A stretch of 50,459 nucleotides of DNA. It comes from a virus. Location of the stretch: the IMG/VR virus record IMGVR_UViG_3300021403_000016, positions 1 to 50,459 of that record, one strand, 5' to 3'. How positions within the stretch are numbered: the first letter of the stretch is position 1; each line of letters starts with the position of its first letter. Shown here piece after piece: positions 32 to 50,429 of this stretch. The notes under the pieces are model-generated. The model did no database searches. It was not told where the DNA came from and saw only the letters and a list, made by a program, of their open reading frames with translations. Made by a program: the position numbers and the translations under genes.

Positions 32-44
32 CACTACGGTAGTG
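32..44. repeat. Dispersed palindrome, copy 1 (CACTAC-G-GTAGTG)
   Basis: Perfect half-sites with a 1-nt spacer, in the non-coding left end. First member of the genome-wide family. Confidence 0.9.
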
Positions 45-116
45 GTCGTTGATGGTCACACATGCTCGCGCATGACGCGCGCACACTAACGTTAGCGAGT
101 GCTAGGAGTTCTGATA

Positions 117-137
117 TGGATGATATGTCATCATCCA
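117..137. promoter_or_regulatory. Inverted repeat TGGATGAT-N5-ATCATCCA
   Basis: Perfect 8-bp arms with a 5-nt spacer, overlapping the -10 region of the putative leftward promoter at 120-149. Position and symmetry suggest an operator; the binding protein is unknown. Confidence 0.4.
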
Positions 138-149
138 CATAATAAACAA
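120..149 (-). promoter_or_regulatory. Putative leftward promoter
   Basis: On the minus strand TTGTTT (144-149) and TATCAT (120-125) are 18 nt apart. If the molecule circularises, it would read into the replication operon starting at 50429. No gene lies immediately downstream within the linear window. Confidence 0.35.
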
Positions 150-248
150 TATCAATGGCTTAGCCTACCGCGGCGCTGCAAGCCTACTATCTGCCCTACG
201 TTTAGGAGGGTTCGCGAGCCCGTTTGCGGTCGCGTGAGCGCAGGCAAA

Positions 249-279
249 GAAAAACCCGCGAAGCTTTCGCCTCGCGGGC
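249..279 (-). terminator. Intrinsic terminator of the 302-1234 gene
   Basis: Read on the minus strand, a GC-rich hairpin (arms CCCGCGAGGCGAA and TTCGCGGG with a small mismatch, 255-278) is followed directly by a T run (plus-strand A run at 250-254). It lies 23 nt past the stop codon of the leftward gene. Confidence 0.8.
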
Positions 280-301
280 TTGTGAGTGTAGGTAGGTGAC
301 G

Positions 302-1234: not shown

Positions 1235-1569
1235 TTGTGCACTCCATGTGTAAGGGACGGGATGTCCACTATCGGCCACGATGATTTACCTGCCGCCACT
1301 ACCGGTAGTTCGGGGCTTTCGCCGACGGCCCAATCCCGCACGCATGCGTGCGCGATGGAAGCCCTCGGCCTCGGCTCGGCCCCCGGCCTATGCTGTCCAT
1401 GACCCCGGCATGGCCCGGTGCCGCCTCCCTAGTCACCCAGACGCGAGGCATCGGAATACCGTGTTAACCTTCGTTAATCTCACGAGCTTAATATTATAAT
1501 TTTTCCCCTTGCCGCGCGAGTCGCCAATCCGTAATCTCGCATTCACCCCCTAGTCACATCGCTCCCCCG
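1235..1569. other. Non-coding divergent intergenic region
   Basis: About 335 bp between the leftward 302-1234 gene and the rightward 1570 gene. It contains a palindrome copy (1297-1310) and an AT-rich stretch with TATAAT at 1495-1500 on the plus strand. I found no good -35 box at the right distance, so I do not call a promoter. No RNA gene was seen. Confidence 0.5.
1297..1310. repeat. Dispersed palindrome, copy 2 (CACTAC-CG-GTAGTT)
   Basis: One mismatch in the last base of the right half-site. Intergenic, upstream of the leftward 302-1234 gene. Confidence 0.85.
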
Positions 1570-2283: not shown

Positions 2284-2335
2284 TGAGGCCGAAGACCGCC
2301 GTGGGCGGTCGAGGACCGAATGGGAGGATGACATC

Positions 2336-2488
2336 GTGAGTGACAGCCAGCGCCGCAAGTTGCGTGAACTGATCGAGTACCCCTGGTGCCGCCGCCCCCT
2401 TGCGATTATCGCGTGGACCTTAGACTACCGGGGGTACGTGCGGCATTCTGACGCATACAAACACGCTAAAGGTTTAAGCTTACTGTAA
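2336..2488 (+). CDS. Small hypothetical protein, 50 aa
   Basis: GTG start with GGGAGG eight bases upstream; stop TAA at 2486-2488. The peptide is basic and aromatic (SDSQRRKLRELIEYPWCRRP at the N-terminus, YRGYVRHSDAYKHAKG near the C-terminus). The ribosome site and codon use support translation, but no family is recognised. It sits between the 237-aa gene and the winged-helix-like gene, and AT-rich non-coding DNA follows it. Confidence 0.5.
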   Translation: MSDSQRRKLRELIEYPWCRRPLAIIAWTLDYRGYVRHSDAYKHAKGLSLL

Positions 2489-2637
2489 GCTTGACCGTTA
2501 AGTTGCAACATTTTGTATGTATCCCAATACTATAGCCGACTGAAAGCGCGGCTGGTCTACCCCGATCGGGCTAACGTCGTGGTTTTCAACGCTCCTGGAA
2601 CGTGTTGTTGTTTCTGTGGTTTATTACCGCGGATGAA

Positions 2638-2654
2638 AGTATGATCCTCATACT
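2638..2654. promoter_or_regulatory. 17-bp dyad operator candidate AGTATGA-TCC-TCATACT
   Basis: Perfect 7-bp arms around a 3-nt spacer, 30 bp upstream of the winged-helix-like gene start and overlapping a TATGAT sequence. Best copy of the second regulatory repeat family. Confidence 0.65.
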
Positions 2655-2683
2655 ACTAGCACGAGTGCGCCAGGAGCCGAGAC

Positions 2684-3091
2684 GTGAAACCCGCTACCGC
2701 CGACCTTCCCCGCGTCACAGCGGCGGAGGTCGATGCCGTCGTTGACTACCTTCAATCTTTCGAGAGGACGCAGCGCCGACCCGAGGCGACCGCGAAGCTC
2801 CTGGTGCTGGCGGTCAAGCTGCACCAGAAGCACGTCCCCTGGCCGTCGCGTCCCGCTGTCGCGGCGCATCTCGACGTGTCGCTGCCCCTCGTCGACGTGG
2901 CGATCTCGCAGCGCCGCGCGCAGGGGATCATCAAGGTCGTGATCGAGACCACGCAGGGTCATGTGCGCAAGCGCCCGTCGGTGATCACCCACCGCTACAT
3001 CGAGCCGTCCCCGTCCCTGGTCGAGGCTGTCGAGAAGGCCGCGACGCCGGCAGCCGGGCGCGCCCGCCGCAAGGTGACGCAGACCGCCTAG
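2684..3091 (+). CDS. Winged-helix-like DNA-binding protein, 135 aa
   Basis: GTG start with AGGAG eight to nine bases upstream. The central part (about residues 45-85; PSRPAVAAHLDVSLPLVDVA then QRRAQGIIKVVIE) has the pattern of a helix-turn-helix followed by a beta wing: a conserved 'AAHLDVS' turn, a recognition-helix-like segment and a VVIET strand. The tail is Ala/Arg/Lys-rich and basic (GRARRKVTQTA). The likely role is a transcriptional regulator or accessory DNA-binding factor. Its promoter region carries the only perfect copy of the 17-bp dyad, which suggests autoregulation; this is inferred. A terminator at 3228-3262 ends the transcript. Confidence 0.65.
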   Translation: MKPATADLPRVTAAEVDAVVDYLQSFERTQRRPEATAKLLVLAVKLHQKHVPWPSRPAVAAHLDVSLPLVDVAISQRRAQGIIKVVIETTQGHVRKRPSVITHRYIEPSPSLVEAVEKAATPAAGRARRKVTQTA

Positions 3092-3227: not shown

Positions 3228-3262
3228 GGCCGCACTACGAGTAGTGGTGCGGCCTGATTTTT
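3228..3262 (+). terminator. Intrinsic terminator built around a palindrome copy
   Basis: The GGCCGCACTAC / GTAGTGGTGCGGCC stem has a 3-nt bulge and is followed by ATTTTTG. The upper stem is itself CACTAC-GA-GTAGTG, a perfect half-site pair of the dispersed repeat. Confidence 0.75.
3233..3246. repeat. Dispersed palindrome, copy 3 (CACTAC-GA-GTAGTG)
   Basis: Both half-sites are perfect with spacer GA rather than CG. Lies inside the terminator hairpin. Confidence 0.75.
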
Positions 3263-3276
3263 GTTAGGCTGGGGAT

Positions 3277-6022: not shown

Positions 6023-6600
6023 CAGATGTCTTCCTCGACCTCGGCGTCCTCGCCACTACCGGTAGTGTCGTCGGTCGGTGGCGGGATCGAGTCGGCGTCG
6101 AGAACGGTGGTGCCGGTGATCTGCTGGGCGCGGCCCCCGGCGAAGTTGATCGTCAGGTTGAACGGCGCGCCGCCACCCTTCTCGGACTTCGCCGCCGCAG
6201 CCGGCGCGCCGTCGACGCCAGCGCCGCGCTGCATCTGCTTGAAGCCGTCGATCCGGTTGCCGATCGGGGTGCGCGGGTCGGCGACGAGCGCCGCGATCGG
6301 GATGATGAGCTGCTCGGTCGCGCGCAGGAACTTGGCGCGGATGCGCCCCTCGGTGGCTTCGTCGCTGAGAAACAACGCGCGCATCCTGCGCGCTTCCAGA
6401 ACTATCGAGGGATGCTGTCGCAAGTACTCGCGAAGCTGATACTTGTCTTTCAGCCCGTATCTACTGGCGATGACATCGCTGTTGTGCATGCCGGTTGCTA
6501 GATCGTACTGCAACCGCAAGATCAGCGCGTCGTCGAGCTGCGGGCTTTCACTGAGGACAAGAGAACCCGAGTTAGCGACCGGAGCGGGCAACATCTGCAT
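6022..6600 (-). CDS. Terminase small subunit-like protein, 192 aa
   Basis: DNA-recognition component of the packaging enzyme, inferred from position directly upstream of the large subunit and from a helix-turn-helix-like N-terminal half (about residues 22-70, with NSDVIASRYGL then YQLREYLRQHPSI). A long helical middle and an acidic, disordered tail (GEDAEVEEDI) follow. The palindrome copy at 6054 falls in this tail, encoding TTGS. The start has a weak ribosome site; a second ATG lies two codons inside. It diverges from the portal gene across a 75-bp promoter region. Confidence 0.75.
   Translation of the reverse strand: MQMLPAPVANSGSLVLSESPQLDDALILRLQYDLATGMHNSDVIASRYGLKDKYQLREYLRQHPSIVLEARRMRALFLSDEATEGRIRAKFLRATEQLIIPIAALVADPRTPIGNRIDGFKQMQRGAGVDGAPAAAAKSEKGGGAPFNLTINFAGGRAQQITGTTVLDADSIPPPTDDTTGSGEDAEVEEDI
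6054..6067. repeat. Dispersed palindrome, copy 4 (CACTAC-CG-GTAGTG)
   Basis: Perfect. Inside the small terminase gene, read as Thr-Thr-Gly-Ser in the disordered acidic tail. Confidence 0.95.
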
Positions 6601-6616
6601 TTGGTATCGCCGGCTA

Positions 6617-9711: not shown

Positions 9712-10753
9712 AGCAGATGTCCTAGACGAGGTTGTAATCCCCGAGCAGGTCCGCCGTCAGGCGGCGCGTGCCGAGGAGCTGCAACGCGAGTTGGCGGCGG
9801 AGCGGGACGATGCTCGTGGGGACGAGGTTCCGCCGTCGACGGAGGTGGTGCCGCCGCAGCGCGACGACACTACGGTAGTGGACAGGGGAGGTTCACCTCC
9901 CGCCCCTGCCCCCGTAGCCGAGCCTGCGGCGGCACCACCGACCGCCGATTGGGAGCAGCGATACCTTACGCTGCAAGGCAAGTACAACAGCGAGACCGCC
10001 GGGCTGCGCGCCCAGGTCGCGGGCATGGAGCGGCTGCTGGCGACGATGCAGCAGCCGCCCCCCGCGCCGGCGTCGCCGGCAGCGCCTGCCAAGGTCAGCT
10101 TCGACCAGGGTGACGTCGATCTCTACGGCGAGGACTTCCTGCAGGCTGCGGCACGGGCTGCGGCGGCACAGTACCAGCCCGTCATCGACGAGCTGCGCGC
10201 CCACATCAGGACCCTCGAAGGGGGTCAGTCACAGATCGCCGCGACGACCGTCCGGGATCGCGTCTTTGACGCGCTCGACAAGGACCCCGAGCTGGACGGC
10301 TGGCGCGAATTGAACACCAACCCTGAGTTCATCCAGTGGCTGCAGGGGTTGGATGAGTACGCTGGAGTGCCACGCAATCAGATGCTCCAGCACGCCTACC
10401 AGAACGGCGACGCCATGCGCACTGGCAGGTTTTTCAAGAAGTACATGGACGAGCATACCGTACCTCCCCCTCCCCGTCCCGCTCAGACTGGCCGCGACGC
10501 CCGCCCGCAAAACGGAAACGGACGTTCGGCTCCAGCGCGTGGGACCAGGCTAGAGGACTTGGTGGTTCCGGGCCGAGCCGCAGGCGGCTCCGGCGGATCA
10601 GACGGCGCTCCGCAACCGCGTATCTGGTCACGACCCGAAATCTCACGCTTCTACCGGGACCGTACCGAGGGGAGATACCGAGGGCGGGAGCAGGAGTCTG
10701 ATGCTCTCGAACGGGACATCCTCGCGGCGGCGCAGGAAGGGCGTGTCGCTTAG
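9704..10753 (+). CDS. Scaffolding protein, 349 aa
   Basis: Directs capsid assembly and is lost from the mature head. The call rests on position immediately before the major capsid gene and on composition: an acidic, helical N-terminus (EQVRRQAARAEELQRELAAE), Pro/Ala-rich linkers, a coiled-coil middle (LQGKYNSETAGLRAQVAGME) and a basic helical C-terminus with ISRFYRDRTEGRYRGRE. This is typical of podovirus scaffolds. The palindrome copy at 9868 encodes TTVV in the first linker. Confidence 0.8.
   Translation: MPEADVLDEVVIPEQVRRQAARAEELQRELAAERDDARGDEVPPSTEVVPPQRDDTTVVDRGGSPPAPAPVAEPAAAPPTADWEQRYLTLQGKYNSETAGLRAQVAGMERLLATMQQPPPAPASPAAPAKVSFDQGDVDLYGEDFLQAAARAAAAQYQPVIDELRAHIRTLEGGQSQIAATTVRDRVFDALDKDPELDGWRELNTNPEFIQWLQGLDEYAGVPRNQMLQHAYQNGDAMRTGRFFKKYMDEHTVPPPPRPAQTGRDARPQNGNGRSAPARGTRLEDLVVPGRAAGGSGGSDGAPQPRIWSRPEISRFYRDRTEGRYRGREQESDALERDILAAAQEGRVA
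9868..9880. repeat. Dispersed palindrome, copy 5 (CACTAC-G-GTAGTG)
   Basis: Perfect half-sites. Inside the scaffold gene, read as Thr-Thr-Val-Val in a linker. Confidence 0.95.
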
Positions 10754-11720: not shown

Positions 11721-11722
11721 GC

Positions 11723-11735
11723 CACTACCGTAGTG
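11723..11735. repeat. Dispersed palindrome, copy 6 (CACTAC-C-GTAGTG)
   Basis: Perfect half-sites in the gap after the capsid gene, starting 2 bp after its stop. Confidence 0.95.
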
Positions 11736-12767: not shown

Positions 12768-13548
12768 CAACGACTACACCTTTACGGTCTACGCCAATTC
12801 GCTGAACCCGTTCGGCCCGGTCGGCAAGGAGAACCTCGACGTTCTTCGGCTGCGGTACGATTTCACCTGCTATCTCGACCCGAGCGAGGGGATCGACCTC
12901 ATCCAGTTTCCGACGATCGGTCTGCCCGCTACCGTCCAGGATGGCAGCAGCGGGTCGTGGCGGCAGGATTACCCGCCGGACGACTCCACTACCGGTAGTG
13001 TCCCACCGGCAGATACTTATCCGCTGGCGGTCGTCTCCCAGGCGATCGAGAGCCCGCAGATCGTCGACATCAGGCTCAATGCCGGGACACCTGGTTTCCA
13101 GTACGTGATGAGCTTCCTCATCGTCGGGTCGAGCAGCCGGCGCAGGAAGCAGGTGGACACGCTGATCAATGTCGAGCCGGCGCTCAACCCGGCGATGTCC
13201 GGGCCGGGTCAGCTCGACCCCGACATCGTGCCGCCGATTGTCGTCAGCGGGTCGATTGCGCTGCCGATGGGGTTCGACGGCCTCGTCATCATGGAGAATA
13301 CGAGCAGCCTCACCGGTCTCGTGGTTACCCTGCCGCCTAACCCGGAACTGGGTCAGGAGGTCGAATACATCGACAAGCTGGGGACCGACGGTGCGTGCCC
13401 GGTGACGTTCCGTGGCGACGGCGACGTGCCGATCGACGGCGACGGCAGTCTGACTTTTCTCAGCATAACCGCCTACGAGGCGCTCAGGTTTGTCTGGACG
13501 GGAACATACTGGCATCTCGAAAGCGTGCGCTTCGGCTTCCTGGCGTGA
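12754..13548 (+). CDS. Structural protein, probably tail, 264 aa
   Basis: ATG 12754 with a GGGGGG run eight bases upstream is preferred to an earlier in-frame start. It is beta-rich: the first half resembles a phage baseplate or tail domain (YTFTVYANSLNPFGP, VVSQAIESPQIVDIRLN) and the second half has a VVTLPPNPELGQEVEY stretch as in small fibre-like beta domains, ending EALRFVWTGTYWHLESV. It sits directly before the first tail fibre. The palindrome at 12987 encodes TTGS in a Pro/Asp loop. The exact role is unknown. Confidence 0.6.
   Translation: MAVGNNDYTFTVYANSLNPFGPVGKENLDVLRLRYDFTCYLDPSEGIDLIQFPTIGLPATVQDGSSGSWRQDYPPDDSTTGSVPPADTYPLAVVSQAIESPQIVDIRLNAGTPGFQYVMSFLIVGSSSRRRKQVDTLINVEPALNPAMSGPGQLDPDIVPPIVVSGSIALPMGFDGLVIMENTSSLTGLVVTLPPNPELGQEVEYIDKLGTDGACPVTFRGDGDVPIDGDGSLTFLSITAYEALRFVWTGTYWHLESVRFGFLA
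12987..13000. repeat. Dispersed palindrome, copy 7 (CACTAC-CG-GTAGTG)
   Basis: Perfect. Inside the tail gene, read as Thr-Thr-Gly-Ser. Confidence 0.95.
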
Positions 13549-16368: not shown

Positions 16369-18117
16369 TTGGTCGCCTGGGTGATCACCACGATGGGGGG
16401 CATGCTCCCCCGTACCGACGATCGCCTGATTGCCGACAACATGGCGGTGGAGTCGGTCAACGTCGACCTGACTTCGGGGCATCTCGCCGGGCTGCCCCAG
16501 CCTGAGTTCCTGATCGACCTGTCGGGTGAACTACCGGTAGTGGAGCGGGCTTACCGGCTGCCGGCGGACGATGTAAATCCCGAGACCTGGCTGCCGCTGC
16601 CGTCGCGCTATAGCTGCGTCGTGCGCTCGCCGCTGGCGAATGACGACCAGCACCGGGTCTACTGGACAAACCCCGGCGACCAGACGCCGTGGTGGAACAC
16701 CCATGCCGGGATCGCGGCGGGGACGCCGGCCTACAATCTGGGGATCGTCCAGCCGACGACGGCACCGACGATCGACAGCGTTTCTGGCGGAACGCCCGAG
16801 CCCGACGCTGACCCAATTGCCCGCAGCTATCTCTACACCTACGTCAATGCTTACGGTGAGGAGAGCGCGCCGTCGCCGGCGAGCGACACCGTGTCGGGTC
16901 CGCCGGATGCGACCTGGACGGTTTCGGGGTTTCCGACTGCGGTGCCGGCCAACCCGGCGGGGGTGAACTACCCGCCGGTCGTCGCTTACCGCGTCTACCG
17001 GACGATAACCAGCGCCACGACAGGGGCGCAGTTCTACTACGTCGCCGAGGTTCCGTTGCCCACCGGCAGCGATACTTACGTCGATAGCGTCGACGACCTG
17101 ACGATCGTCAACAACGAGATACTGGAGTCGACCAACTGGGGGAACCCGCCCGATTACCTCGACGGGCTGGTGGCGATGCCGGGCGGCTTTCTCTGCGGCT
17201 TTACCACGAACACGGTGCATTTCACCGAGCCGGACCACCCGCACACTTGGCCGTCGGTCTACGATCAGAGCGCGCATTACCTGATCGTCGCCCTCGCGGT
17301 GTGGCAGCAATACCTGATGGTGCTGACCCAAGGGTTCCCCTCGGCGGGCTCCGGCAACATGCCGAGCAATATCGTGATCACCCAGACCCAGGTGCCCGAG
17401 CCGTGCATCGCGCGCGGGTCGGTCGTGGTCGACATGTCGGGGGTCTTCTACGCCTCACAGAACGGGCTGATCCAGTTCACCGGCTACGGCATACAAAACA
17501 TCACCGAGCAAATCATGTCGAAGCTCGAATGGAACAACCGCTTTCACGCGCGCAACCTGGTGTCGGCGCGGCATCGCTCGCAGTACATGGCGGTCAACGA
17601 GACCGATGCCGGGTTCCTTATCGACTACGACGAGGTTCGCCTGGGGGTCGAGGAGCTGAGCACGCTCGAAGGCGTCGTGTGCATCTGGAACGACGAGTAC
17701 ACCGGCGACACGCTGATCTGTAGCGGCGGCAAGATTTACACCTGGGACGGACCCAATACGCCGCCGACGATCTATCGCTGGCGGTCGAAGCAGTTCTTCA
17801 CCCCGACGCCGCTGAGCCTCGGCGCGTGCCAGGTCGAGCTGGACCCCGAGGTGCTGACCGCGCCGTCGGACGATCCGATCCCGCTCGACAACGGCGACCC
17901 GCTGATGCAGTTGCCGGCGGGCGTCAACGCCCAGTTCCGCTACTACGCGGGGCCGCAACTGACGCTGATCACCACCCGCAACCTCACCAAGCAGATGGAG
18001 ATTTTCCGGCTGCCGAAAGGCTTTAAGGCGTTCGATCACCAGGCTGAGATCGTCGCGCGTGTGCCGGTGTCCTCGATCCAGCTCGCGCAGACGCTCGAAG
18101 ACTTGAAGACCGTCTGA
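16369..18117 (+). CDS. Tail nozzle/tubular-B-like protein, 582 aa
   Basis: TTG start shortly after the Ig-protein stop, with GGGAG upstream. The sequence reads as a beta-propeller-like tail protein: [20 protein letters not shown] at the start, [48 protein letters not shown] and [19 protein letters not shown]. Length and composition fit the podovirus tail tubular protein B/nozzle group rather than a fibre. Its TGA overlaps the ATG of the second fibre. The palindrome at 16529 encodes LPVV. Confidence 0.7.
16529..16542. repeat. Dispersed palindrome, copy 8 (AACTAC-CG-GTAGTG)
   Basis: One mismatch at the first base. In the nozzle-like gene, read as Leu-Pro-Val-Val, a reading frame not used by the other copies. 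Confidence 0.9.
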
Positions 18118-21992: not shown

Positions 21993-22004
21993 CTACCGGT
22001 AGTG
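21991..22004. repeat. Dispersed palindrome, copy 10 (AACTAC-CG-GTAGTG)
   Basis: One mismatch at the first base. Overlaps the TAA of the internal-protein gene and lies 11 bp before the next ATG. Confidence 0.9.
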
Positions 22005-33962: not shown

Positions 33963-33976
33963 CACTACCGGTAGTG
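33963..33976. repeat. Dispersed palindrome, copy 14, at the repressor promoter (CACTAC-CG-GTAGTG)
   Basis: Perfect copy 46 bp upstream of the XRE gene start and covering the -35 position relative to TATAAT at 33994-33999 (17-nt spacing). Best-placed copy for an operator role. Confidence 0.95.
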
Positions 33977-34022: not shown

Positions 34023-34424
34023 GTGCCGCAGCGTCGGAAGACGGTGATGCGTGATGGCGCGCACCCGGTTGATATAGCGGTTGGAAACCGCATACGGGTA
34101 CAACGCATGATGAAGGGATGGAGCCAGGAGCGGCTTGCCGACTTCCTCGGACTGACATTCCAGCAGGTGCAGAAATACGAGCGCGGCATGAACCGTGTCA
34201 GCGCCTCGCGGCTCTACGAAATTTCACAAGCTTTCGACGTTCCGATACCCTGGTTCTTCGAGGGTGTCGTCACTAACCCATCCGACTTTGTGGACTGGAC
34301 GCAGGACGCCGCCGTCATGGAGATGGTGCGCCTCTTGACCACGTTTACTTCGGAGCAGCGGGCACGTCTGGTGTCCCTGCTGCGGAGCTTTGAGCCTGAT
34401 CCTGAGTGCGGCGCTGCGACTTGA
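34023..34424 (+). CDS. XRE-family repressor-like regulator, 133 aa
   Basis: GTG start with GGGAGG six to seven bases upstream. Residues about 22-83 are a classic Cro/cI-type helix-turn-helix (VGNRIRVQRMMKGWSQERLA, LGLTFQQVQKYERGMNRVSA, LYEISQAFDVPIPWFFEG), of a type common in alphaproteobacterial genomes and prophages. The C-terminal 50 residues are a short helical tail. It is the likeliest lysogeny repressor, transcribed toward the int-xis operon. Its 3' end overlaps the opposite gene 34345-34755 by 80 bp. A perfect palindrome copy overlaps its promoter. Confidence 0.85.
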   Translation: MPQRRKTVMRDGAHPVDIAVGNRIRVQRMMKGWSQERLADFLGLTFQQVQKYERGMNRVSASRLYEISQAFDVPIPWFFEGVVTNPSDFVDWTQDAAVMEMVRLLTTFTSEQRARLVSLLRSFEPDPECGAAT

Positions 34425-34995: not shown

Positions 34996-36195
34996 CTATC
35001 GACTACAGTAGTCGTCCCAGGCTTGCATCAGCTTGCGGCGCTCGTCGAGGATATCGCCCATGATGTACGCGGCCTCGGCCCCGACGTGTATCTTGTGAGC
35101 CATCGCGGTCTCGACGGTATCGCGATCGAAGACCCCCTTCATCTTGTCCCGCACCCAGGAGCGGAATGCTCCGCGCTGCCCGTGGATCGTCAGCGTGCGG
35201 TCGCCGCTCACCTCTTTCATGATGTCGAGCTGCGCATTGGTGTGCACCCGGTCTGCGGTGTCGCCGGGGAATACGTAGTCGTTGCGCCGCGTCTCCGCCA
35301 TCAGCTCGACAAGCGCAAAGGCCCGGTCGCTCAGCGGTATGCGGAACTCCCTTTTCGACTTCATCCTTTCCGCCGGGATCGTCCACACCCGCCCAGTCAT
35401 GTCGATCTCGCTCCACGTCGCGTCGCGCGTCATCTCCCTGCGGGCGGCAGTGAGGATGGTGAACTCGGTAGCCCGGTAGTAGTTGCCGTCACAGGCGCGC
35501 AGCCGCGCCATGAATGCGGGCATGGCCTCAACGTCGAGCCCCTTCTGATGCTTAACACTGTGCAGCGTCTTAATGCTCGGAAGCACGTTGTCGAGAGCGT
35601 CCTTCCACTGCGCCGGGTCGTCGGTGCGGTAACCCAGGTAGACGGCGTAGCGGAACGCCCTCGATAGCAGCTTCTGCACGATGTCCGCTGTGGGTGGCAT
35701 CGTCGTCCAAATTGGCCGCAAGACCTGGAGGACGTGCTCGCGCGTGATTGCGTTGACCCGCTTAGCACCGATCGTCGGGTAGACGTAAATCTCGAACTGG
35801 CTTGTTGACGCCCTCTGGTGTCGCCCTTTGAGGCGTTCCGCCAGGAAGGCTTTCGCACACGCCTCGAAGCTGGGCGCGGTCGGGCGCTCCTGCTCGCGGG
35901 CCTGTACCTGCTCTGCTTGTACGGCACGTCTATCGACGAGCGGATCGACCCGATCGACCTTGACCTGGTACAGTAGCTCGCTTGCGCGTCTGCGCGCCTG
36001 GGCTAGCGTGACGAGCTTAGCCGACCCGAGACCCATGTGGCGCGGCTTCCTGCCGCCACGCGGCGTGTAGCGAAATATCCATGAGCGCGCATTTGGACGT
36101 ACGTGTAGGTAGAGACCGCCGCCATCGCAGTAGACGCCGGTCGTTAAGGTCTCGACCTGGCGGACGGTAAGAGGTTTGGCTGCTGCTTTAGGCAC
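34996..36195 (-). CDS. int: Tyrosine integrase, P4-type, 399 aa
   Basis: Site-specific recombinase for prophage integration. The N-terminus has the DUF4102-type arm-binding pattern (DGGGLYLHVRPNARSWIFRY, GLGSAKLVTLAQAR). The catalytic domain shows Arg252 (LTAARREM), His338/Arg341 (IHGQRGAF), His367 (AMAHK) and Tyr377 (AAYIMGD). GTG 36195, with GGAG upstream and a typical VPKAAAKPLT start, is preferred; an ATG at 36285 is open but lies at the presumed transcription start. It is followed by xis. No tRNA fragment is seen nearby, so attP could not be placed. Confidence 0.95.
   Translation of the reverse strand: MPKAAAKPLTVRQVETLTTGVYCDGGGLYLHVRPNARSWIFRYTPRGGRKPRHMGLGSAKLVTLAQARRRASELLYQVKVDRVDPLVDRRAVQAEQVQAREQERPTAPSFEACAKAFLAERLKGRHQRASTSQFEIYVYPTIGAKRVNAITREHVLQVLRPIWTTMPPTADIVQKLLSRAFRYAVYLGYRTDDPAQWKDALDNVLPSIKTLHSVKHQKGLDVEAMPAFMARLRACDGNYYRATEFTILTAARREMTRDATWSEIDMTGRVWTIPAERMKSKREFRIPLSDRAFALVELMAETRRNDYVFPGDTADRVHTNAQLDIMKEVSGDRTLTIHGQRGAFRSWVRDKMKGVFDRDTVETAMAHKIHVGAEAAYIMGDILDERRKLMQAWDDYCSR
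35001..35013. repeat. Dispersed palindrome, degenerate copy 15 (GACTAC-A-GTAGTC)
   Basis: A perfect palindrome but with the outermost base pair changed. Covers the last codons of the integrase gene. Confidence 0.5.
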
Positions 36196-36419: not shown

Positions 36420-39359
36420 TCACGGGACTTGAGGCAACCCACTAACCGGACTACGAGGCCGCAAGGGCACTATCTTCTTGGCAGGTGAGGCACTACCGGT
36501 AGTGGCGACGAACTCAGGGTGCGCGTCGAGAAGGTGTGCCAGCTCAGGTCTCGTGATAGAAAACTGGACGAAGTGAACCCGAGGCGTGTAGTAGGCCGTG
36601 CCCCTACCAAGGGGTCCGCGATTTAGTTCCGCGCCCCACTCCTCGACCATCTGATCGAGCAGCTTGCTCTCGGGCTTTCCCTTTCTTGCACACCACAGGT
36701 GGAAGAACTCGCGGTCGATCCTGATCTCCCCGTCGGTAGCTGCGATGTGGAAGGCTGGCGTCTTCTGCCCAAACACTGCTGGGTATTTCGCCCGAGGTTC
36801 TTGTGAGATCAGGCGTTGGGGTCCGCCTCTTGAAAATCTCGCAGTGACCACGTAGGCGTCCATATGGTCTCTACAGAAATCATCGAGAGTTTTCGCAAGC
36901 GCATCTACTTTGTTTTTAGGCTCGAAATACTCGCGGCCTGTACGCGCCCGCAGAATAGCGGCACAGAGAACTTTGGTGATCGCCTTGGCGTCGAGATTAA
37001 TCAGTCCGAGATGCGTCGCCAGGACCGCGCCGACGATCACGCACGCAGAGGTCGCGGCGTAAAATCGCTCCTCGGCTTCATGCGGTGCCGTGAGGTCGAT
37101 CACTGTTTGCTTGGCCTTGGCGAGCATCCCCTCGATCCGTTGCGCATTCTGCGCGATGTAGCTCGCGTAGACCCGGCCAGCGTGCCCGAAATTCCCCTGC
37201 AGCTTCGCGACGATAATCGACGCCGACGCGTTGACCGGCATCTTGCGTTCGATCTCGATCTCCAGCACCCGTACGAGCGTCGCGCTCTTGTGCCCGTCCT
37301 GGGCCGCGACGAGTTCCGCGACGGAGTTGTTTGTCGCCAGCGGGAAGATCGTCGCCCAGTCCCCCGCCGGGCGCACCTTCACGTCCGCCGTCAGCCGCCC
37401 CTTGTCGCGTCCTTGCGTGAGCTTGTGCAACGTCGTGACCAACTGCGCCTGCTGGTCCTTGGTCGCGATCTTCGCCTCGTCCCAGTACACCGGAAGCGAT
37501 CGGATTTGGCCCAGCATCAGACCTTGGAAAGCGGATGTATCGTCGAGCTGGATCGTCGTCGATTTCGGATGACCCCACACCGCCGCGCCGACTTTGAAAG
37601 CCGACGACTTGCCGATGCCGCTTGGCCCAACAAAGGCGAGGCAGCCGCCGTCTTCGCCGGCGAGGGTCATCAGCGGCGCGCCGAACGACGCAGCGATGGC
37701 GGTGTGCAGCTCGGGCACATCGGCTGCGACAAACTTAGCCGCGCGCTTCCAGTCGGCAAGATCGCCATCGGGCGTATATCGCGACACGAGTTGCTGGTCT
37801 GAGCCAGGGGCTGGGGTCTCACTGCCGTCCGCTCCGTAGAAGGTGCCCGCGACAGCGAAGCCGGTATAAGTACTGCCGTCCATCGCCCAGCCGAAGCTCG
37901 GCAAGGGCTTGTTGCGTATCTGACAGGCTGCCAGGAGCTGGTCGATCCAAGCCATGATGAGGTCCATGAAGGGTTTGAAATTATAGAAGTGTAAGTCGAC
38001 GCCCTTTAGTGAAAACAGTTCGCGCCCGCTGCGCTGGTTCATCTCGTCGTGGAACACCGGTACGACGATCGGGACGCGATCGGACCGTGTGAAGGTGAAG
38101 GTGAGCCGGCGGCGGTTATCAACCTGTTCGAGGATCGGGTTTCCCACGTCGCCCTGCACGATGCGCGACCACTTGTTCTCATCCACCTGGTGCTCCAGCC
38201 AGCCCCCCTGCCGCCGGTAGCCGGGCGGCAAGTCGTTGGGGTTCACCTGGTTCGCGACCAAGCCAAGCTGGAATGGCGAGGTGATCTTGCCGTTGTGCGG
38301 GCACGCGGCGCAGACGCCGGGGCGCTCAGCGTCGAAGGTCGCGCACAGCGGCGCGCCGAATGATTTCTTGGCGTGCTCCGCCGCGACGAGATCGACCTCG
38401 GCGTCGGTCTTCGCCTGATCGTAGGTCGGGTGCAGGTGCCCGACATCGTGGCTCCAGGTGCGCGCGTCCTCGCAGAAGAAGGCGAGCGTCAGCAGGGCGC
38501 GCCAGAGCTGCCGCCCGTCGTGCTCGCCGTGCTCCTGGAGCGACTGCTGGACCTGGGCGCAGTTGTTCGCGATGAGGGCGAAGTCGCGTGGCCTGGCGCT
38601 CATCCCTGCCCGCGCGTTCGCCGCCATCGAGGTGGGCTTCTGAAACGCCGCGCTCGGCTTTGGCGCACTACGGTAGTGGGTCTGGGCTTGCAGCGTCGGC
38701 AAGAGGTCGGTGTAGTCGCCGCCGTCGATCAGCGAGAAGCACGGTGCCGGGTTGGCCCGGTCCTTGTAGTTGAAGGTTGCGACCGGGCGCAGGATGCGCG
38801 CGGCGTCCGCGACGACACCGATGTCGCCCTTAGCCCCGTGCGCGACCAGCGCCGCCTTGAGCGCCTCGGCATAGGGCTGCCACTGCGCCACGGGGAGCGC
38901 GTCGGTGAAGGTCCAGTAGAGGTGCACGCCGTAGCCCGACTTGACCCACACGTTGGGCAGCGGGATGCCGGTCGCCCGGCTGAAGTCCTTCGTCCAGTGC
39001 ACCACCTCGTTGATGTCGGCGAAGACCTTGCTCGGGTCCTTGCCGTCGCCGGCGCGCTTGATATCCGCGTCGAACCAGAACGATTTCAGCGCCTCGGCGT
39101 TTGCCTGGGTGCGCTCGCCACGATAAAATTGCCGCTGGCTTTTGGCGTTGGTGTGCAGCGTCGCTGTCTTGTAACTGGCGACGGCGTACCATACGTCCAT
39201 GCTGGCGATGTCGGATGCCCAGCGCGCAAAGGTTGCCGCGTCGGCAACATTGTTTCGAGGGAAGAACCGGTGACCGAGACCTTTGTCACCCTTGAACGCG
39301 ACAGCGAGGAAATTCCCCGGCGCGACCATACGATCTAGAAACTGCTCTAGGCTCATCAT
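36420..39359 (-). CDS. Primase-helicase with AEP and P-loop domains, 979 aa
   Basis: The N-terminal part (about 1-220) is an archaeo-eukaryotic primase-like domain: FWFDAD with Asp97/Asp99, and SGYGVHLYW with His146. A Cys/His cluster follows (Cys339, Cys350, Cys353 in CAACPHNG). The C-terminal half is a DUF927-like superfamily III type ATPase with Walker A GPSGIGKSS (578-586) and Walker B VYWDEAK (624-630). It probably primes and unwinds at the phage origin. It is the last gene of the leftward replication operon; GAGG precedes ATG 39359. Palindrome copies at 36491 (TTGS) and 38666 (HYRS) lie in linkers. Confidence 0.88.
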   Translation of the reverse strand: MMSLEQFLDRMVAPGNFLAVAFKGDKGLGHRFFPRNNVADAATFARWASDIASMDVWYAVASYKTATLHTNAKSQRQFYRGERTQANAEALKSFWFDADIKRAGDGKDPSKVFADINEVVHWTKDFSRATGIPLPNVWVKSGYGVHLYWTFTDALPVAQWQPYAEALKAALVAHGAKGDIGVVADAARILRPVATFNYKDRANPAPCFSLIDGGDYTDLLPTLQAQTHYRSAPKPSAAFQKPTSMAANARAGMSARPRDFALIANNCAQVQQSLQEHGEHDGRQLWRALLTLAFFCEDARTWSHDVGHLHPTYDQAKTDAEVDLVAAEHAKKSFGAPLCATFDAERPGVCAACPHNGKITSPFQLGLVANQVNPNDLPPGYRRQGGWLEHQVDENKWSRIVQGDVGNPILEQVDNRRRLTFTFTRSDRVPIVVPVFHDEMNQRSGRELFSLKGVDLHFYNFKPFMDLIMAWIDQLLAACQIRNKPLPSFGWAMDGSTYTGFAVAGTFYGADGSETPAPGSDQQLVSRYTPDGDLADWKRAAKFVAADVPELHTAIAASFGAPLMTLAGEDGGCLAFVGPSGIGKSSAFKVGAAVWGHPKSTTIQLDDTSAFQGLMLGQIRSLPVYWDEAKIATKDQQAQLVTTLHKLTQGRDKGRLTADVKVRPAGDWATIFPLATNNSVAELVAAQDGHKSATLVRVLEIEIERKMPVNASASIIVAKLQGNFGHAGRVYASYIAQNAQRIEGMLAKAKQTVIDLTAPHEAEERFYAATSACVIVGAVLATHLGLINLDAKAITKVLCAAILRARTGREYFEPKNKVDALAKTLDDFCRDHMDAYVVTARFSRGGPQRLISQEPRAKYPAVFGQKTPAFHIAATDGEIRIDREFFHLWCARKGKPESKLLDQMVEEWGAELNRGPLGRGTAYYTPRVHFVQFSITRPELAHLLDAHPEFVATTGSASPAKKIVPLRPRSPVSGLPQVP
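36491..36504. repeat. Dispersed palindrome, copy 16 (CACTAC-CG-GTAGTG)
   Basis: Perfect. In the C-terminal tail of the primase-helicase gene, read as Thr-Thr-Gly-Ser. Confidence 0.95.
38666..38678. repeat. Dispersed palindrome, copy 17 (CACTAC-G-GTAGTG)
   Basis: Perfect half-sites. In the linker after the primase domain, read as His-Tyr-Arg-Ser. Confidence 0.95.
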
Positions 39360-39418: not shown

Positions 39419-40537
39419 CTAGCCGGCGGCGTCTTGAAGCAGATCGTCGATCGCTTCCTCAAGATCGGGCGGCGCGGCGGCGGGCGTCTGGGTCGCGGAG
39501 GCGACCCGGCGCTGGCGGGTTGCAGCGGGTTTTGCTGCGGCTGGCGCTGCTTGCGGCGCAGTTCCGGCGGGCCGGGTTGCGGCGGCGAAGGGGTTCTTCA
39601 CTACCGTAGTGGCTGCCTCGGGCTCGGGCGGCGGCTCCGGCTCCGGTTCCGGCGCGGGCTCCGGCGGCGGGGGTTCCTGGATCGGCGGGGGCTCCGCTGC
39701 CGGCGTCGACGCGGCGCGTCGCAGGGGCGTGACCGTCGCGCTCTGCATCGCGGCGGGTGGCTTGCCGGCGATCTCACCGGCCGCCCCCGCTGCGGGAGCC
39801 GACTCGATAGGTCCCGCGTCGAACAGCATGCGCTCGATGAGCGGGTTCTGCATGACGTCGACCACCTGCTGCGCCTGATCGTCGTTGAGAAATCCCAGCG
39901 CCTCGAAGACGATCTTTGGGTACGCCACGTCGTAGTCGAAGCTGAGCTTGGTGCCGACCCACGGCACGTCGGCTCCCTTGCGGGTGAGGAAGTCGGCGTA
40001 GTTCGCCAGGTTGGGCAGGCTCGTCGGCGGGATGCGCAGCAGCATCGGACCGCCGAGGCTCTCGTTCTCGATGTCGAGCAACGGCACGATGGCGATGCGC
40101 CGGCTGTCCTGGCAAGACTTGGCCCGCTTGCCGGCCTCGGTGATCCGCGAGCCCCACTGGTTGTGCGGGCAGGTGCCGCAGGTGGCGTTCTGCTTTTTCG
40201 GCGCGGCGGCGTCGGGGGCAACGCCGTCGAGCGAGAAGCAGTCTGGCGCGCTGTCGTCGCCCTCGGTGTAGGATTTGGCGTAGTAGATTTTCGAGACCGA
40301 CGGCGCGACCCCGACGATCACCACCTCAAGCTCGGGGATCGGGCGGTTCTGGCCGTCCCGCAGCAAGGTCTCCTCCCCTCGATGCTTTAAGCGCCAGCTC
40401 CTCCCCTTGTAGCCGACGACCGCGAAGCTCGCCTGGACGCCAGCGCGGGCGGCGTCGAGCATGCCTGATCGTTGGCGGTTGGCGAAGGCGGCGGGGATGT
40501 TTCCGCTAGCGTCGAAGGGGACGAGATTGCCTTGCAT
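39419..40537 (-). CDS. Cys-cluster replication protein, 372 aa
   Basis: The first 240 residues are globular with CGTCPHNQWGS and a later KSCQD, a Cys/His cluster pattern found in phage replication-region proteins that lie next to DUF927/primase genes. The last 130 residues are Pro/Glu/Ala-rich and end in an acidic tip (PPDLEEAIDDLLQDAAG), as in single-strand DNA-binding proteins that recruit partners through an acidic tail. An ssDNA-binding role is therefore plausible but inferred. A palindrome copy (39599) encodes TTVV in the linker. The 17-bp dyad is just upstream. Confidence 0.65.
   Translation of the reverse strand: MQGNLVPFDASGNIPAAFANRQRSGMLDAARAGVQASFAVVGYKGRSWRLKHRGEETLLRDGQNRPIPELEVVIVGVAPSVSKIYYAKSYTEGDDSAPDCFSLDGVAPDAAAPKKQNATCGTCPHNQWGSRITEAGKRAKSCQDSRRIAIVPLLDIENESLGGPMLLRIPPTSLPNLANYADFLTRKGADVPWVGTKLSFDYDVAYPKIVFEALGFLNDDQAQQVVDVMQNPLIERMLFDAGPIESAPAAGAAGEIAGKPPAAMQSATVTPLRRAASTPAAEPPPIQEPPPPEPAPEPEPEPPPEPEAATTVVKNPFAAATRPAGTAPQAAPAAAKPAATRQRRVASATQTPAAAPPDLEEAIDDLLQDAAG
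39599..39611. repeat. Dispersed palindrome, copy 18 (CACTAC-C-GTAGTG)
   Basis: Perfect half-sites. Inside the Cys-cluster gene, read as Thr-Thr-Val-Val in the Pro/Glu linker. Confidence 0.95.
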
Positions 40538-47490: not shown

Positions 47491-49385
47491 AGGTTCACCC
47501 CTCTCTCCGCGTCGTGAAGTGTCACGCCCCACCCGCCCTCGCTGGCGAGCGGCAGACCCTCGGCCCAGTCGGGCGTCACCGCGAACTCGTGCTCAAGCTC
47601 GATGTCGAGGTCCTCGGCTTCGCTCGCCGGCACGCAGTAGTCGAGGCTGTCATGGGTCGAGAGGAACGGGTGATGCCGGGTGTTCTGGTAGACCCGCACC
47701 GCGATGTCGGTGACGATGATCCGCGCCAGCGCCTGTGACACATTCTCCACGGTCTTCGCGCCGTAGAGTTTCTGCTGGCCGCCGTACGGGTCGTCGTAGC
47801 AAATCTCGATCTTGTTCTCACTACGGTAGTGACGGATGTTGGGGTAGCTGATCTTGAGCCCGCTGGGCAGGATGATGCTGTCGTGGTCGGGCTCGATCGG
47901 TATCCGGGCGAGCAGCTCCTGCGCGTCGCTCTCGCCGTGCCGGCCTATGCGCCTGCCGATGACGGCCCCCAGCACGCCGTCCATCGCCCGCCACAGCATC
48001 GGCACCTCGGCGTAGAAGGTGCGGTACTGGCGGACGATGCGGCTGGCTTCGAGGCTCTCGATGCGGTAGCTGATCCCGCCGTTGCCGATGAACAGCATGT
48101 GCTGGAACCGCGACGCGCCGCAGCCATAGCCGAGCCCGAGGATCGCGGTCTTGCCGACAAAGCGTTCCTTCACGTCGTCGCGGGTGACGTTGCGCCCGTA
48201 GACCAGGGACGCGAACTCGCTGTACACGTCGCGCCCGCCGGCGAAGGCGTCGAGCAAGGGCCAGCAGCACGCCAGCCAGGCGACCATGCGCGCCTCGATC
48301 TGGCTGGCGTCGCGATGCACGATGCGATACCGGGGCGGAGCCTTGATCGCCTTGCGGATCGTCGAGCCCCGGCGGAAGTTCTGCCAGTTTGTTCCACCGT
48401 CCCCTGATAGGCGATGGGTGCGCGCCCCTGAATACTTGAGCGGCACGACGCCCCAGCCCACGCCCTGCGTCGGCCAGCTTGTGCGCGCCAGCCGCAGCAG
48501 ATGCCGCGTGCGGGTTTCCTCGATGGTGGATTTGACCGACAGCCGCGCGGCGAGAAGTGTTTGCACCGCAATGGGTTGGGTCTCGTCGACGCAGAGTTCC
48601 TTAAAGGCCCAGTCATTTTTAGCGATGGCTGGAATAAGATCGCCAGTGGTTGGCGACCGCTTCATCGGCACCTCGACGCCGTAATCCCGCAAGAGCTGAG
48701 CGAACTTTGCGTTCGAGCTAAACACGCTCTTGTCGATCGTCGCCTCGATCTCGGCGAGCACCGCCGCCTTCTCGGCCTCAACCTCGTCGAGGTGTTGCTT
48801 CAGCACGGCTTCGTCGAGCAGCACCTGGGGCATGATGAACATGCGCAGCACCAGGTCGATGAGGCTCAGCTCCCTGGCGCTGAAGCAGCGGCGCATGAGG
48901 TGGAAGATGTCGTAGGCGTTGTCGTTGTCGCGCGCGCAGTAGACGCGGTAGGCGTGCAGCTCGTCGGGCATGAAGTCGCGCAGCCGCTTGCCGATCGCGC
49001 GCACCACCTCGTCGCCCTTGGGCGGCAGCCCGAGGTAGCCGCTGACCGCCTTGAGGCTGGAGCGCCCGATGTTCCAGTGCGTCGTCGCCCGTGCCATCGA
49101 CAGCGTGTCGAGGTACATCCTGGGCACGTAGCCAAAGCGCCACGCCAGGATCGCGCCGTCGAAGCGGGTGTTATGGCTGAGCCACGCGGCGCTCGACCAG
49201 TCGATCTCCGCCAAGGCAGCGGCGACCGCATCGCGCCCGACATGGGTGCGCGTCGGCCCGCTGCCCAGCTTGAGCCCGAGCATGATGGTCTCGAACCTGG
49301 GATCAAGGATGTACTCGACCTCGCTCATTTTCGAGAGCGAGTACTCCTTGTCGTAATAGGTCTCGAAGTCGCCGCTGACGATCAT
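47487..49385 (-). CDS. DNA polymerase I-type (family A), 632 aa
   Basis: Replicative phage polymerase. The 3'-5' exonuclease domain is at the start: GDFETYYD (Asp6, Glu8) and HNTRFD (Asp76). Polymerase motifs: A RDASQIEAR (Asp359); B R408-x3-K412-x7-Y420G, with Leu416 at the site equal to E. coli Pol I Phe762; C THDSLDY, with Asp579 followed by Ser where Glu is usual. No 5'-3' exonuclease domain. Length fits phage PolA proteins. The palindrome at 47819 encodes HYRS. The 17-bp dyad variant is immediately upstream. Confidence 0.95.
   Translation of the reverse strand: MIVSGDFETYYDKEYSLSKMSEVEYILDPRFETIMLGLKLGSGPTRTHVGRDAVAAALAEIDWSSAAWLSHNTRFDGAILAWRFGYVPRMYLDTLSMARATTHWNIGRSSLKAVSGYLGLPPKGDEVVRAIGKRLRDFMPDELHAYRVYCARDNDNAYDIFHLMRRCFSARELSLIDLVLRMFIMPQVLLDEAVLKQHLDEVEAEKAAVLAEIEATIDKSVFSSNAKFAQLLRDYGVEVPMKRSPTTGDLIPAIAKNDWAFKELCVDETQPIAVQTLLAARLSVKSTIEETRTRHLLRLARTSWPTQGVGWGVVPLKYSGARTHRLSGDGGTNWQNFRRGSTIRKAIKAPPRYRIVHRDASQIEARMVAWLACCWPLLDAFAGGRDVYSEFASLVYGRNVTRDDVKERFVGKTAILGLGYGCGASRFQHMLFIGNGGISYRIESLEASRIVRQYRTFYAEVPMLWRAMDGVLGAVIGRRIGRHGESDAQELLARIPIEPDHDSIILPSGLKISYPNIRHYRSENKIEICYDDPYGGQQKLYGAKTVENVSQALARIIVTDIAVRVYQNTRHHPFLSTHDSLDYCVPASEAEDLDIELEHEFAVTPDWAEGLPLASEGGWGVTLHDAERGVNL
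47819..47831. repeat. Dispersed palindrome, copy 21 (CACTAC-G-GTAGTG)
   Basis: Perfect half-sites. Inside the polymerase gene, read as His-Tyr-Arg-Ser. Confidence 0.95.
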
Positions 49386-49399
49386 CGGCGGACTGCCAT

Positions 49400-49416
49400 A
49401 CTATGATTTTTGTATT
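49400..49416. promoter_or_regulatory. 17-bp dyad, weak copy ACTATGA-TTT-TTGTATT
   Basis: One near-perfect arm and one weak arm with the same spacing, in the 32-bp gap before the polymerase start. Confidence 0.35.
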
Positions 49417-49417
49417 A

Positions 49418-50149
49418 TCAACCCGTGCCTTTCTCCCAGTCAACCACCTCAACGTCGACCTGGGCGTTTTCCGCCGGCGACGCCGGGATCATCCGCGCGC
49501 TGGCGAGCTTGCCGCCGATGACTTCGAGCTTCTCGATGTTGTCGAGATACCAGTCGTACGATCTGCCCTTCTCCGGCCAGTCGTATATCACGAGCTTGAC
49601 CGAGGGCAGGCTGCGCGCCCGCCGTGCCCACTGCTCGCCCATGTCGAGCAGCACGTTCAGGAAGTCGGGCCAGCGCGTGTAGATCGACGCCACGCTGTCG
49701 CCGCAATGGTCGTCGAGGAACTCCCGCACGATCCGCTTCATGTTCACCGCCATGCGGTGCTGGCGCACTGTCGGGTTGAGCCACTCGACAAAGCTCGCGC
49801 GCTTCTTCTCGTCCAGCGCGTCCAGGTTCAAGATCGTCATGTCGTTGTTCCGGTAGGGAAACTCCGGTCCCCTCAATTTACGGAACAGCAGCTTCGCGCT
49901 TACGGTGACACCATTCCCGCCAGGGAGCCACACGGTGAGATGACCCGTCGTCGGTATGTAGTAGCTACTGTTCCGCAGGTGTGCCAGCGCAGCACGATCG
50001 GCCTCGGTGGTCGTCGCCAGTTGCACGTCCCCATTGGTCAGCGGGCAGCCCGCGCGGTGCAGGTCGTAAGCGCGCACCAATAGCTTGTCGGCGTGGCTCT
50101 TGATCCGCTCCTTACCGTTCGATGTCAGCTTATAATTTGTCGTCGTCAT
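49418..50149 (-). CDS. Hypothetical protein, 243 aa
   Basis: Upstream neighbour of the polymerase, overlapping the first gene of the operon by 20 bp. Mixed fold: N-terminal helix and linker (KERIKSHADKLLVRAYDLHR), a strand-rich middle (TGHLTVWLPGGNGVTVSAKL), a helical part (NPTVRQHRMAVNMKRIVREF) and an acidic C-terminus (VDVEVVDWEKGTG). No domain is recognised. Operon position suggests a replication accessory role. Confidence 0.7.
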   Translation of the reverse strand: MTTTNYKLTSNGKERIKSHADKLLVRAYDLHRAGCPLTNGDVQLATTTEADRAALAHLRNSSYYIPTTGHLTVWLPGGNGVTVSAKLLFRKLRGPEFPYRNNDMTILNLDALDEKKRASFVEWLNPTVRQHRMAVNMKRIVREFLDDHCGDSVASIYTRWPDFLNVLLDMGEQWARRARSLPSVKLVIYDWPEKGRSYDWYLDNIEKLEVIGGKLASARMIPASPAENAQVDVEVVDWEKGTG

Positions 50150-50429
50150 CTTTTGGCTCCATAGTCTGGTTGCCCCTGGTCACCACAAAGAACCGGGGGT
50201 GGTTGGGGTGTAGTTCACAAGTGCACATGTAGTGACCGGACATCCCGTCGAGTGACATGTACAGCATCTCGACGGTAGCCAACCCGCCAGCAGCGCGGTT
50301 GGCGATCTCCTGGCCGATTACCTCGGCTGCCTCGTTCATCCATTGCTTCACTACGGTAGTGCAGTCGTCGCAGTGAAACTCCCACCACGGAGCGTCACCG
50401 GGTTCATGCACTCCTATGTCGAGTGTCAT
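50130..50429 (-). CDS. Hypothetical Cys/His-rich protein, 99 aa
   Basis: AGAGGTGA precedes ATG 50429. First gene of the leftward operon inside the window. HCDDCTTVVKQWMNEAAE near residue 19 and MCTCELHPNHPRFFVV near residue 69 give possible metal ligands, so a small zinc-binding fold is possible. The Thr-Thr-Val-Val after CDDC comes from the palindrome at 50349. Confidence 0.7.
   Translation of the reverse strand: MTLDIGVHEPGDAPWWEFHCDDCTTVVKQWMNEAAEVIGQEIANRAAGGLATVEMLYMSLDGMSGHYMCTCELHPNHPRFFVVTRGNQTMEPKDDDDKL
50349..50361. repeat. Dispersed palindrome, copy 22 (CACTAC-G-GTAGTG)
   Basis: Perfect half-sites. Inside the 99-aa gene, read as Thr-Thr-Val-Val. On a circular map it would be about 140 bp from copy 1. 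Confidence 0.95.

Follow-up and report, generated by a model that had tools for sequence, protein, structure and literature searches.

The 50,459-base IMG/VR virus record IMGVR_UViG_3300021403_000016 (hereafter the window, meaning the whole stretch of DNA analyzed) carries a dispersed array of the short palindrome CACTAC-N1-2-GTAGTG, and most of the related phage contigs carry an array of the same or another short palindrome. Between lineages the sequence of the motif changes while its place, judged from protein alignments, is conserved above chance. We tentatively favor the reading that the palindromes are putative sites of a dimeric, most likely phage-encoded DNA-binding protein acting genome-wide through roadblock-type silencing.

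Pattern searches with both spacers recovered all 22 sites of the original prediction, each at its coordinate and with the predicted totals per mismatch class (15 perfect, five with one mismatch, and two with two; table 1). Three control sequences resampled from an order-1 Markov chain gave a mean of 0 sites with at most one mismatch against 20 observed, and 2.0 with at most two mismatches against 22. The 20 sites with at most one mismatch are therefore firm members of a real array, and those at 24848 and 35001 could be chance matches. Allowing three mismatches brings the N1 form down to chance level (16 vs. 12.35). Intervals between the 22 sites range from 933 to 3814 bp (coefficient of variation 0.36), a spacing matched by 0 of 20,000 random placements. 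The earlier statement that no region longer than about 4 kb lacks a site is correct for the full set, but the largest gap between the 20 firm sites is 6,051 bp. Seventeen of the 22 overlap a called gene and five are intergenic; in a second gene-calling run, 14 of the 20 firm sites lie wholly within genes. As predicted for a phage-specific array, exact copies are scarce in bacterial chromosomes: three in total among 40 Bradyrhizobium genomes, which represent likely hosts only, against 15 in the 50 kb of the window. The array had also been called genome-wide, and sites do occur across the record, but the record itself looks incomplete because relatives carry several kilobases more between the genes matching its ends, including a MoxR-like ATPase, a DUF2201 VWA protein, and small genes; the window (ends 1-300 and 50430-50459) is probably a fragment of a genome of ∼60 kb.

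An exact 14-mer scan, from which contig counts are lower bounds, found at least several contigs with multiple copies, among them IMGVR_UViG_3300025934_000020 with 20 perfect sites. A capsid search retained 80 loci of 133 capsid relatives. Longer stretches were read for 28 contigs (G numbers), comprising 26 capsid relatives together with G004 and G005 from the 14-mer scan, and the reading extended up to the last 1,619 bp of G053 and the last 808 bp of G044. Gapped palindromes were compared with expectations from word counts, giving raw P values over ∼13,000 word-and-gap choices. By this measure a dispersed palindrome array is present in 23 of 29 contigs, window included (log10 P −10.8 to −94 for the best 5-mer palindrome), so that the anticipated conservation in related phages was found; excluding the motif-picked G004 and G005, the figure is 21 of 27 (the window and the 26 capsid relatives). 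Outside the 23, G026 (−10.0), G053 (−9.9), and G059 (−9.1) are borderline, and the gapped-palindrome test detected no array in G049, G055, and G056. Array contigs hold from 10 (G025) to 100 (G048) sites, compared with at most 1.4 in resampled sequence.

The CACTAC-N1-2 form occurs in the window, G001-G005, G025, and G029, and its N1 version in G040. Close relatives without CACTAC sites carry other dispersed palindromes, with half-sites and spacers TTAGTAC-N2 (G028), TTACTCC-N1 (G031 and G033), TTCCCTAC-N2 (G037), TCCCTAC-N0-1 (G027), TTACTAC-N1 (G035), TGCTAC-N1 (G030), GTTACCT-N4 (G048), TTACC(C)-N4 (G042, G043, G045, and G051), TTACCTC-N1 (G044), and TTACTT-N3-4 (G050). Because the half-sites of separate lineages are near variants of each other, the sequences suggest that the binders of different lineages are related proteins. 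The cultured Rhizobium phage RHph_TM27A has GTTACC(T) palindromes (for example GTTACCTNNNNAGGTAAC), with TTACC-N6-GGTAA present 26 times (log10 P −50), and the first 50 kb of the Planktothrix phage Pag-Yong1 contains an array of GGTTCAG-N1-CTGAACC, with GTTCA-N3-TGAAC present 22 times (log10 P −47). No comparable array was found in 50 kb each of seven other phages (S6, phiFa, LUZ7, At2, KPP25, Rollin, and Xp15), the closest being phiFa with four copies of one GC-rich 6-mer palindrome (log10 P −9.8).

To compare places, sites were carried between lineages via protein alignments, using lineage classes that we set from the motifs. A site of the other lineage's own motif lay no more than 15 bp away in 510 of 4,927 comparisons (91.6 expected, standard deviation 15.1, maximum 145 in 200 shifts). 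Because sites favor gene junctions, the comparison was rerun for gene interiors only (more than 60 bp inside), where 69 of 2,466 fell within 6 bp against 13.8 expected (standard deviation 3.6, maximum 25 in 300 shifts). In both tests the counts are not independent, since pairs were taken in both directions and the genomes are related, but the surplus over expectation is large. Sites of different sequence share homologous places at about five times expectation, within genes too. The junction behind the capsid gene, for instance, holds CACTACCGTAGTG in the window and TTACTCCCGGAGTAA in G031 and G033. A site lies at most 200 bp upstream of the start of g1 homologs in 11 of the 13 counted.

Against a uniform expectation, the 681 sites are fewer in coding sequence (393 vs. 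608.9) and more numerous in gaps between tandem genes (238 vs. 53.8), with the remainder in divergent gaps (33 vs. 10.5), convergent gaps (9 vs. 5.3), and record edges (8 vs. 2.6). Spacing is evener than under a null preserving the coding share in 17 of 23 contigs (raw per-contig P < 0.05 each). The tandem-junction preference speaks for an effect on elongating transcription or translation and the even spacing for coverage of the whole molecule. Site flanks oriented by gene strand have no clear asymmetry, and the absence of a promoter link together with the many intragenic sites speaks against ordinary operators. Promoter or terminator elements were rejected for want of a strong fixed offset, and restriction avoidance because it predicts under-representation instead.

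Under the silencing reading, each lineage would have its own protein specificity; the sites have diverged in sequence, yet well more of them than chance predicts are still in the same place. The protein is predicted to be a dimer because the sites are symmetric. Bound in transcribed DNA every ∼0.6 to 3.6 kb, it would block or dampen RNA polymerase on any transcript passing through, and the genome would be silenced in lysogeny or in a phase of infection, stoperator-like but in both directions, as the symmetry of the sites implies. Several points weigh against this. Known stoperators function in a single orientation (PMC9283540), something that a symmetric site is unable to provide. Among 240 oriented tandem sites there is no strong fixed offset to a −10, −35, T-tract, or AGGAG element, only weak bumps. 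Even spacing, which fits genome organization too, is not seen in G002, G031, G033, G037, G044, and G045; 14 of 20 records have no integrase of either type; and no binder common to all same-motif phages was found among the XRE, winged-helix, and ParB-like genes.

A role in genome organization, with sites that load or anchor a protein coating, bridging, or compacting the replicating phage DNA and transcription not the main target, is possible but rather less probable. ParB, MatP, and KorB coat, bridge, or compact other replicons. The evener-than-random spacing, the 393 of 681 sites within genes, the missing promoter link, and the arrays in phages without a detected integrase all agree with such a role. 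Coverage alone does not, however, predict the preference for tandem (238 vs. 53.8 expected) over convergent junctions (9 vs. 5.3), ParA is nearly absent and no shared ParB was seen, and G031 and G044 lack even spacing, their sites appearing crowded in the early and replication part. Hairpins acting in the transcript as terminators or as masks of ribosome-binding sites seem very improbable, since most of the 240 oriented tandem sites have no TTTTT or AGGAG at a constant distance, many sites are intragenic, and each lineage preserves an exact sequence of its own rather than mere pairing. A few sites do lie in terminator-like hairpins (3233) or over the ribosome-binding region (G033, G042, G043, G044, and G048; e.g., TTACCCCCGGAGGTAAccGTG in G043), and in these five contigs the overlapping site may itself be the Shine-Dalgarno sequence. 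Chance, codon bias, or low-complexity sequence has a negligible claim and is already refuted for sites with at most one mismatch by the array P values, resampling, conservation of place, spacing, and the lack of a comparable array when the same test is applied to the seven other phages, although two-mismatch sites are at chance level.

The original prediction was of a phage-encoded system that silences, organizes, or segregates the prophage or replicating genome through these sites. What survives is an array that is real, phage-specific, present in relatives, and selected in place; segregation, a role confined to prophages, and the named proteins as the general binder are not supported. ParA (PF13614) was matched in one of 20 records (G035), and a simple pattern search for ParB-like proteins picked up only those of the window, G029, and G031, plus a fourth match (G055) that looks unrelated. 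Tyrosine integrases are present in six of the 20 records and serine recombinases in none, so lysogeny alone cannot explain the arrays. The parallel with stoperators is also inexact, true stoperators being asymmetric and oriented (PMC9283540) and the array sites palindromic. Silencing and genome organization are both viable.

A MoxR-VWA gene pair accompanies the arrays. Members of the MoxR and VWA families occur in 18 contigs each, all with an array or borderline (G053 and G059), and in none of G026, G049, G055, and G056; two of these four, G055 and G026, have lengths of 24 to 28 kb. An array without the pair is seen in the window and in six records (16 to 35 kb) from which the neighboring PolA gene is missing as well. 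The pair is present in RHph_TM27A and in Pag-Yong1, and DUF2201 was matched in 17 of the 18 virus records that have an array or are borderline, all except the window. Three phages that share replication genes with this group, KPP25, Rollin, and Xp15, have neither a MoxR-VWA match nor an array in the 50 kb read. The pair is insufficient alone, however, because S6, LUZ7, At2, and the Thermus phage phiFa have it without a comparable array in the 50 kb read; DUF2201 was matched in 22 of 28 records, including the array-less S6, LUZ7, and phiFa. The VWA/DUF2201 family (L220:9198-10538) is labeled “HNH endonuclease” in PHROGs and in several phage records, and Pfam finds DUF2201 domains in it.

The association of pair and array would suit sites that distinguish the phage's own DNA from foreign or host DNA (for protection, exclusion of other phages, or nuclease control), with MoxR-VWA as the ATP-driven part and rapid change of specificity as the divergence of immunity groups. 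We consider this unlikely: four phages have the pair without the array, the link may reflect shared descent of one phage family, and binding itself is putative. A broader proposal, which we regard as doubtful, is that phages of hosts as unrelated as Rhizobiales and cyanobacteria have a genome-wide recognition code of evenly spaced 15-16 bp palindromes with a MoxR-VWA-linked reader, nearly all sites of a lineage being rewritten upon specificity change and giving rise to self-recognition or exclusion groups.

None of the candidate binders follows the arrays in every case. The XRE-type helix-turn-helix protein g35 had been named as one, and an array site precedes its gene in the window (table 1) and lies 37 bp upstream of the XRE gene in G029. 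It has no match, however, in the same-motif contigs G001, G002, G003, G004, and G005 (the last three are fragments), and HTH_3 domains, matched in nine of 25 records, likewise miss G001 and G002. The winged-helix-like g3, also proposed, is missing from the same-motif G002 (61 kb) and the fragments G003 and G005, which together probably make up most of one phage, and is present in G026, where the array is unclear. The ParB-like g45 is confined to the window and G029, with another ParB-like protein in G031. Profiles of PolA, the SSB-like protein, g40, SNF2, and the PD-(D/E)XK nuclease match KPP25, Rollin, and Xp15, none of which has an array in 50 kb; DUF927 and the large g31-like protein also match the array-less Rollin, and the VRR nuclease matches both Rollin and Xp15. 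The protein g52 is common to distant array carriers (hhalign 90%, E 1.6e-6) but has a weak match in KPP25 (E 2e-4), which has no array; its structure model is confident (predicted local distance difference test 88) but has no outstanding counterpart among solved folds (best Foldseek E 0.69; best Z 3.8). The middle gene cl23, labeled DUF3150 in one annotated record, is present in Pag-Yong1 and was not found in G042, G043, G044, G048, or RHph_TM27A. A search for residues shared only by G027 and G037, which both have the TCCCTAC half-site, made no protein stand out among those compared. The binder may be encoded outside the sampled genes, differ from lineage to lineage, or come from the host.

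Short dispersed palindromes acting on a whole replicon are familiar from plasmid parS arrays, KorB operators, and the matS sites of MatP; in contrast to those systems, no shared ParB was seen here and almost no ParA. The hairpin promoters of N4-like virion RNA polymerases are few, each tied to an early transcript, whereas the arrays have 10-100 sites, including in late genes, with no fixed flank. In the window, the family profile of g31 (26126-32998, 2,290 amino acids) matches a LUZ7 open reading frame annotated as virion RNA polymerase (E 1.2e-10; reading frame cut at 50 kb), its last part matches a DarB-like PHROG, and no RNA polymerase match to g31 was found in PHROGs.

The known system most like these arrays is the 17-bp repeat of Cluster O mycobacteriophages such as Corndog (TGTTCGG-N3-CCGAACA, 34 copies), the function of which was unexplained in 2015 (PMC4351075). 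Like the sites here it is palindromic, dispersed, intergenic as well as coding, and mostly away from promoters, and its authors likewise argued against ordinary operators (PMC4351075). Cluster O phages have no integrase and the repeat is absent from two named host genomes (PMC4351075), a rarity in bacterial chromosomes resembling the three exact sites in likely hosts reported above. The differences are another sequence and spacer, an unrelated host, up to 100 sites per genome here, and five closely related genomes with one sequence (PMC4351075) versus lineages that differ. Cluster A stoperators (L5 and TipsytheTRex) also number more than 20 genome-wide, in short intergenic spaces (PMC9283540), and immune specificities evolve (PMC6550527). 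The arrays resemble them in dispersal (10-100 sites per contig) and in preferring short tandem gaps, yet 393 of 681 sites are coding. In Cluster A, a monomeric repressor binds asymmetric 13-mers that are oriented with transcription (PMC9283540), whereas the sites here are symmetric and largely intragenic, and no repressor was found. The array of Pag-Yong1 matches in geometry, and this phage also has MoxR, VWA, and the middle gene, but its palindrome differs in sequence and its host is a cyanobacterium; in the 50 kb read, the only matches at E 0.01 to the family profiles searched were MoxR, VWA, the middle gene, and a small HNH-like protein.

A dispersed phage-genome palindrome of unexplained function is thus already known from Cluster O mycobacteriophages. 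We found no prior description of the array in this phage family in the literature searched, which left most subscription journals outside its coverage; what is new, as far as searched, is that such arrays extend to phages of Rhizobiales and cyanobacteria, that their sequence changes at a conserved place, that most are evenly spaced, and that they are linked to MoxR-VWA. The natural series of motif versions could identify the reading protein by covariation, and with RHph_TM27A as a cultured carrier the question can be put to laboratory test. If the array does silence or organize the genome, it would represent a general and little-known layer of phage control.

Relatives of the window are present in two Bradyrhizobium genomes. 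One genome (8.7 Mb) has 25 copies of TTAC-N8-9-GTAA, of which a 60.6-kb phage contig holds 11. The other (7.9 Mb) has 33: six are in the contig of the capsid gene, and 15 fall in the initial 24 kb of a 170-kb contig opening with phage replication genes. The Bradyrhizobium arrays appear looser because the locus L289 has no palindrome array in its 21 kb and its whole contig gives −14.4 with 4-mers yet −8.7 with 5-mers. Bacterial genomes yielded 47 capsid relatives (loci of 3 to 21 kb), and 43 of these are without notable palindromes, the exceptions being L295 (−11.8), L306 (−41.4), L290 (−9.6), and L291 (6-mers, −8.7). L295, from a betaproteobacterial metagenome-assembled genome, has ACTAC-N1-GTAGT at 1148, 3166, 6218, 8150, and 9859 within 17 kb, adjoining a capsid gene 61% identical to that of the window, and is likely a further array carrier. 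L306, a Candidatus Magnetomicrobium contig with a related capsid gene, has 18 copies of GTGCG-N4-CGCAC at 499-17846 of its 20.9 kb, partly in tandem at 24-bp steps; these appear to be a different kind of repeat. At the apparent border of the relative in Bradyrhizobium sp. 139, the open reading frame that follows a phage primase-like gene (G061:C166:23435-25165) reads like a large serine recombinase, and the relative looks to be integrated beside it.

Table 1. Palindrome sites and candidate DNA-binding proteins in the window
Feature	Coordinates	Strand	Remarks
Array site, N1, perfect	32..44	.	Intergenic, record end
Array site, N2, one mismatch	1297..1310	.	Upstream of g1 (start 1234, minus)
g3, winged-helix-like, candidate binder	2684..3091	+	Sequence reading, no Pfam hit; family in 10 of 29 contigs
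Array site, N2, perfect	3233..3246	.	Intergenic; within a longer hairpin, then TTTTT
Array site, N2, perfect	6054..6067	.	In g9; G037 near homologous place: TTCCTTCCCGGTAGGGAA
Array site, N1, perfect	9868..9880	.	In g14
Array site, N1, perfect	11723..11735	.	Gap between major capsid gene and g16; homologous place in G031/G033 (TTACTCCCGGAGTAA) and G035
Array site, N2, perfect	12987..13000	.	In g18
Array site, N2, one mismatch	16529..16542	.	In g23
Array site, N1, perfect	18452..18464	.	In g24
Array site, N2, one mismatch	21991..22004	.	At g28 stop
Doubtful array site, N2, two mismatches	24848..24861	.	Chance level
Array site, N2, perfect	28042..28055	.	In g31
Array site, N2, one mismatch	30799..30812	.	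In g31
Array site, N2, perfect	33963..33976	.	Centre 54 bp upstream of XRE gene start (34023)
g35, XRE-type helix-turn-helix protein, candidate binder	34023..34424	+	Close homolog only in G029 among 40 records
Doubtful array site, N1, two mismatches	35001..35013	.	Chance level; 3' end of integrase gene
Array site, N2, perfect	36491..36504	.	In g38; G028 homologous place: TTAGTACCGGTACTAA
Array site, N1, perfect	38666..38678	.	In g38; own motifs of G028 and G030 at homologous places
Array site, N1, perfect	39599..39611	.	In g39; G048 homologous place: GTTACCTCTGAAGGTAAC
Array site, N1, perfect	41825..41837	.	In g43
g45, ParB-like	42751..43650	-	DUF6551 25.3 bits, cut-off 26.8; PHROG 1033 ParB-like; window and G029
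Array site, N1, one mismatch	45356..45368	.	Overlap of g47 and g48
Array site, N1, perfect	47819..47831	.	In PolA gene g51
g52, fast-evolving protein	49418..50149	-	Remote homologs between VWA and PolA in distant array carriers
Array site, N1, perfect	50349..50361	.	In g53

By gene content the phage of the window appears podovirus-like. Its genes include those for an integrase, the XRE protein, a DUF927 primase-helicase-like protein, an SNF2 helicase, a PD-(D/E)XK nuclease, and DNA polymerase A, and a VRR nuclease match falls below the Pfam cut-off. No near match to its first 25 kb was found among 50,697 phage records, a set from which near records were possibly excluded, and part of its major capsid gene shares 68% identity with the RHph_TM27A gene. 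In the latter phage, EVB29_077 (L282, from 42248-45000 on) is labeled a “putative integrase” but stands where relatives have the DUF927 primase-like gene, and PF00589 misses the record; the label is probably a misnomer. The annotated attL/attR of RHph_TM27A is a GC-rich 14-mer.

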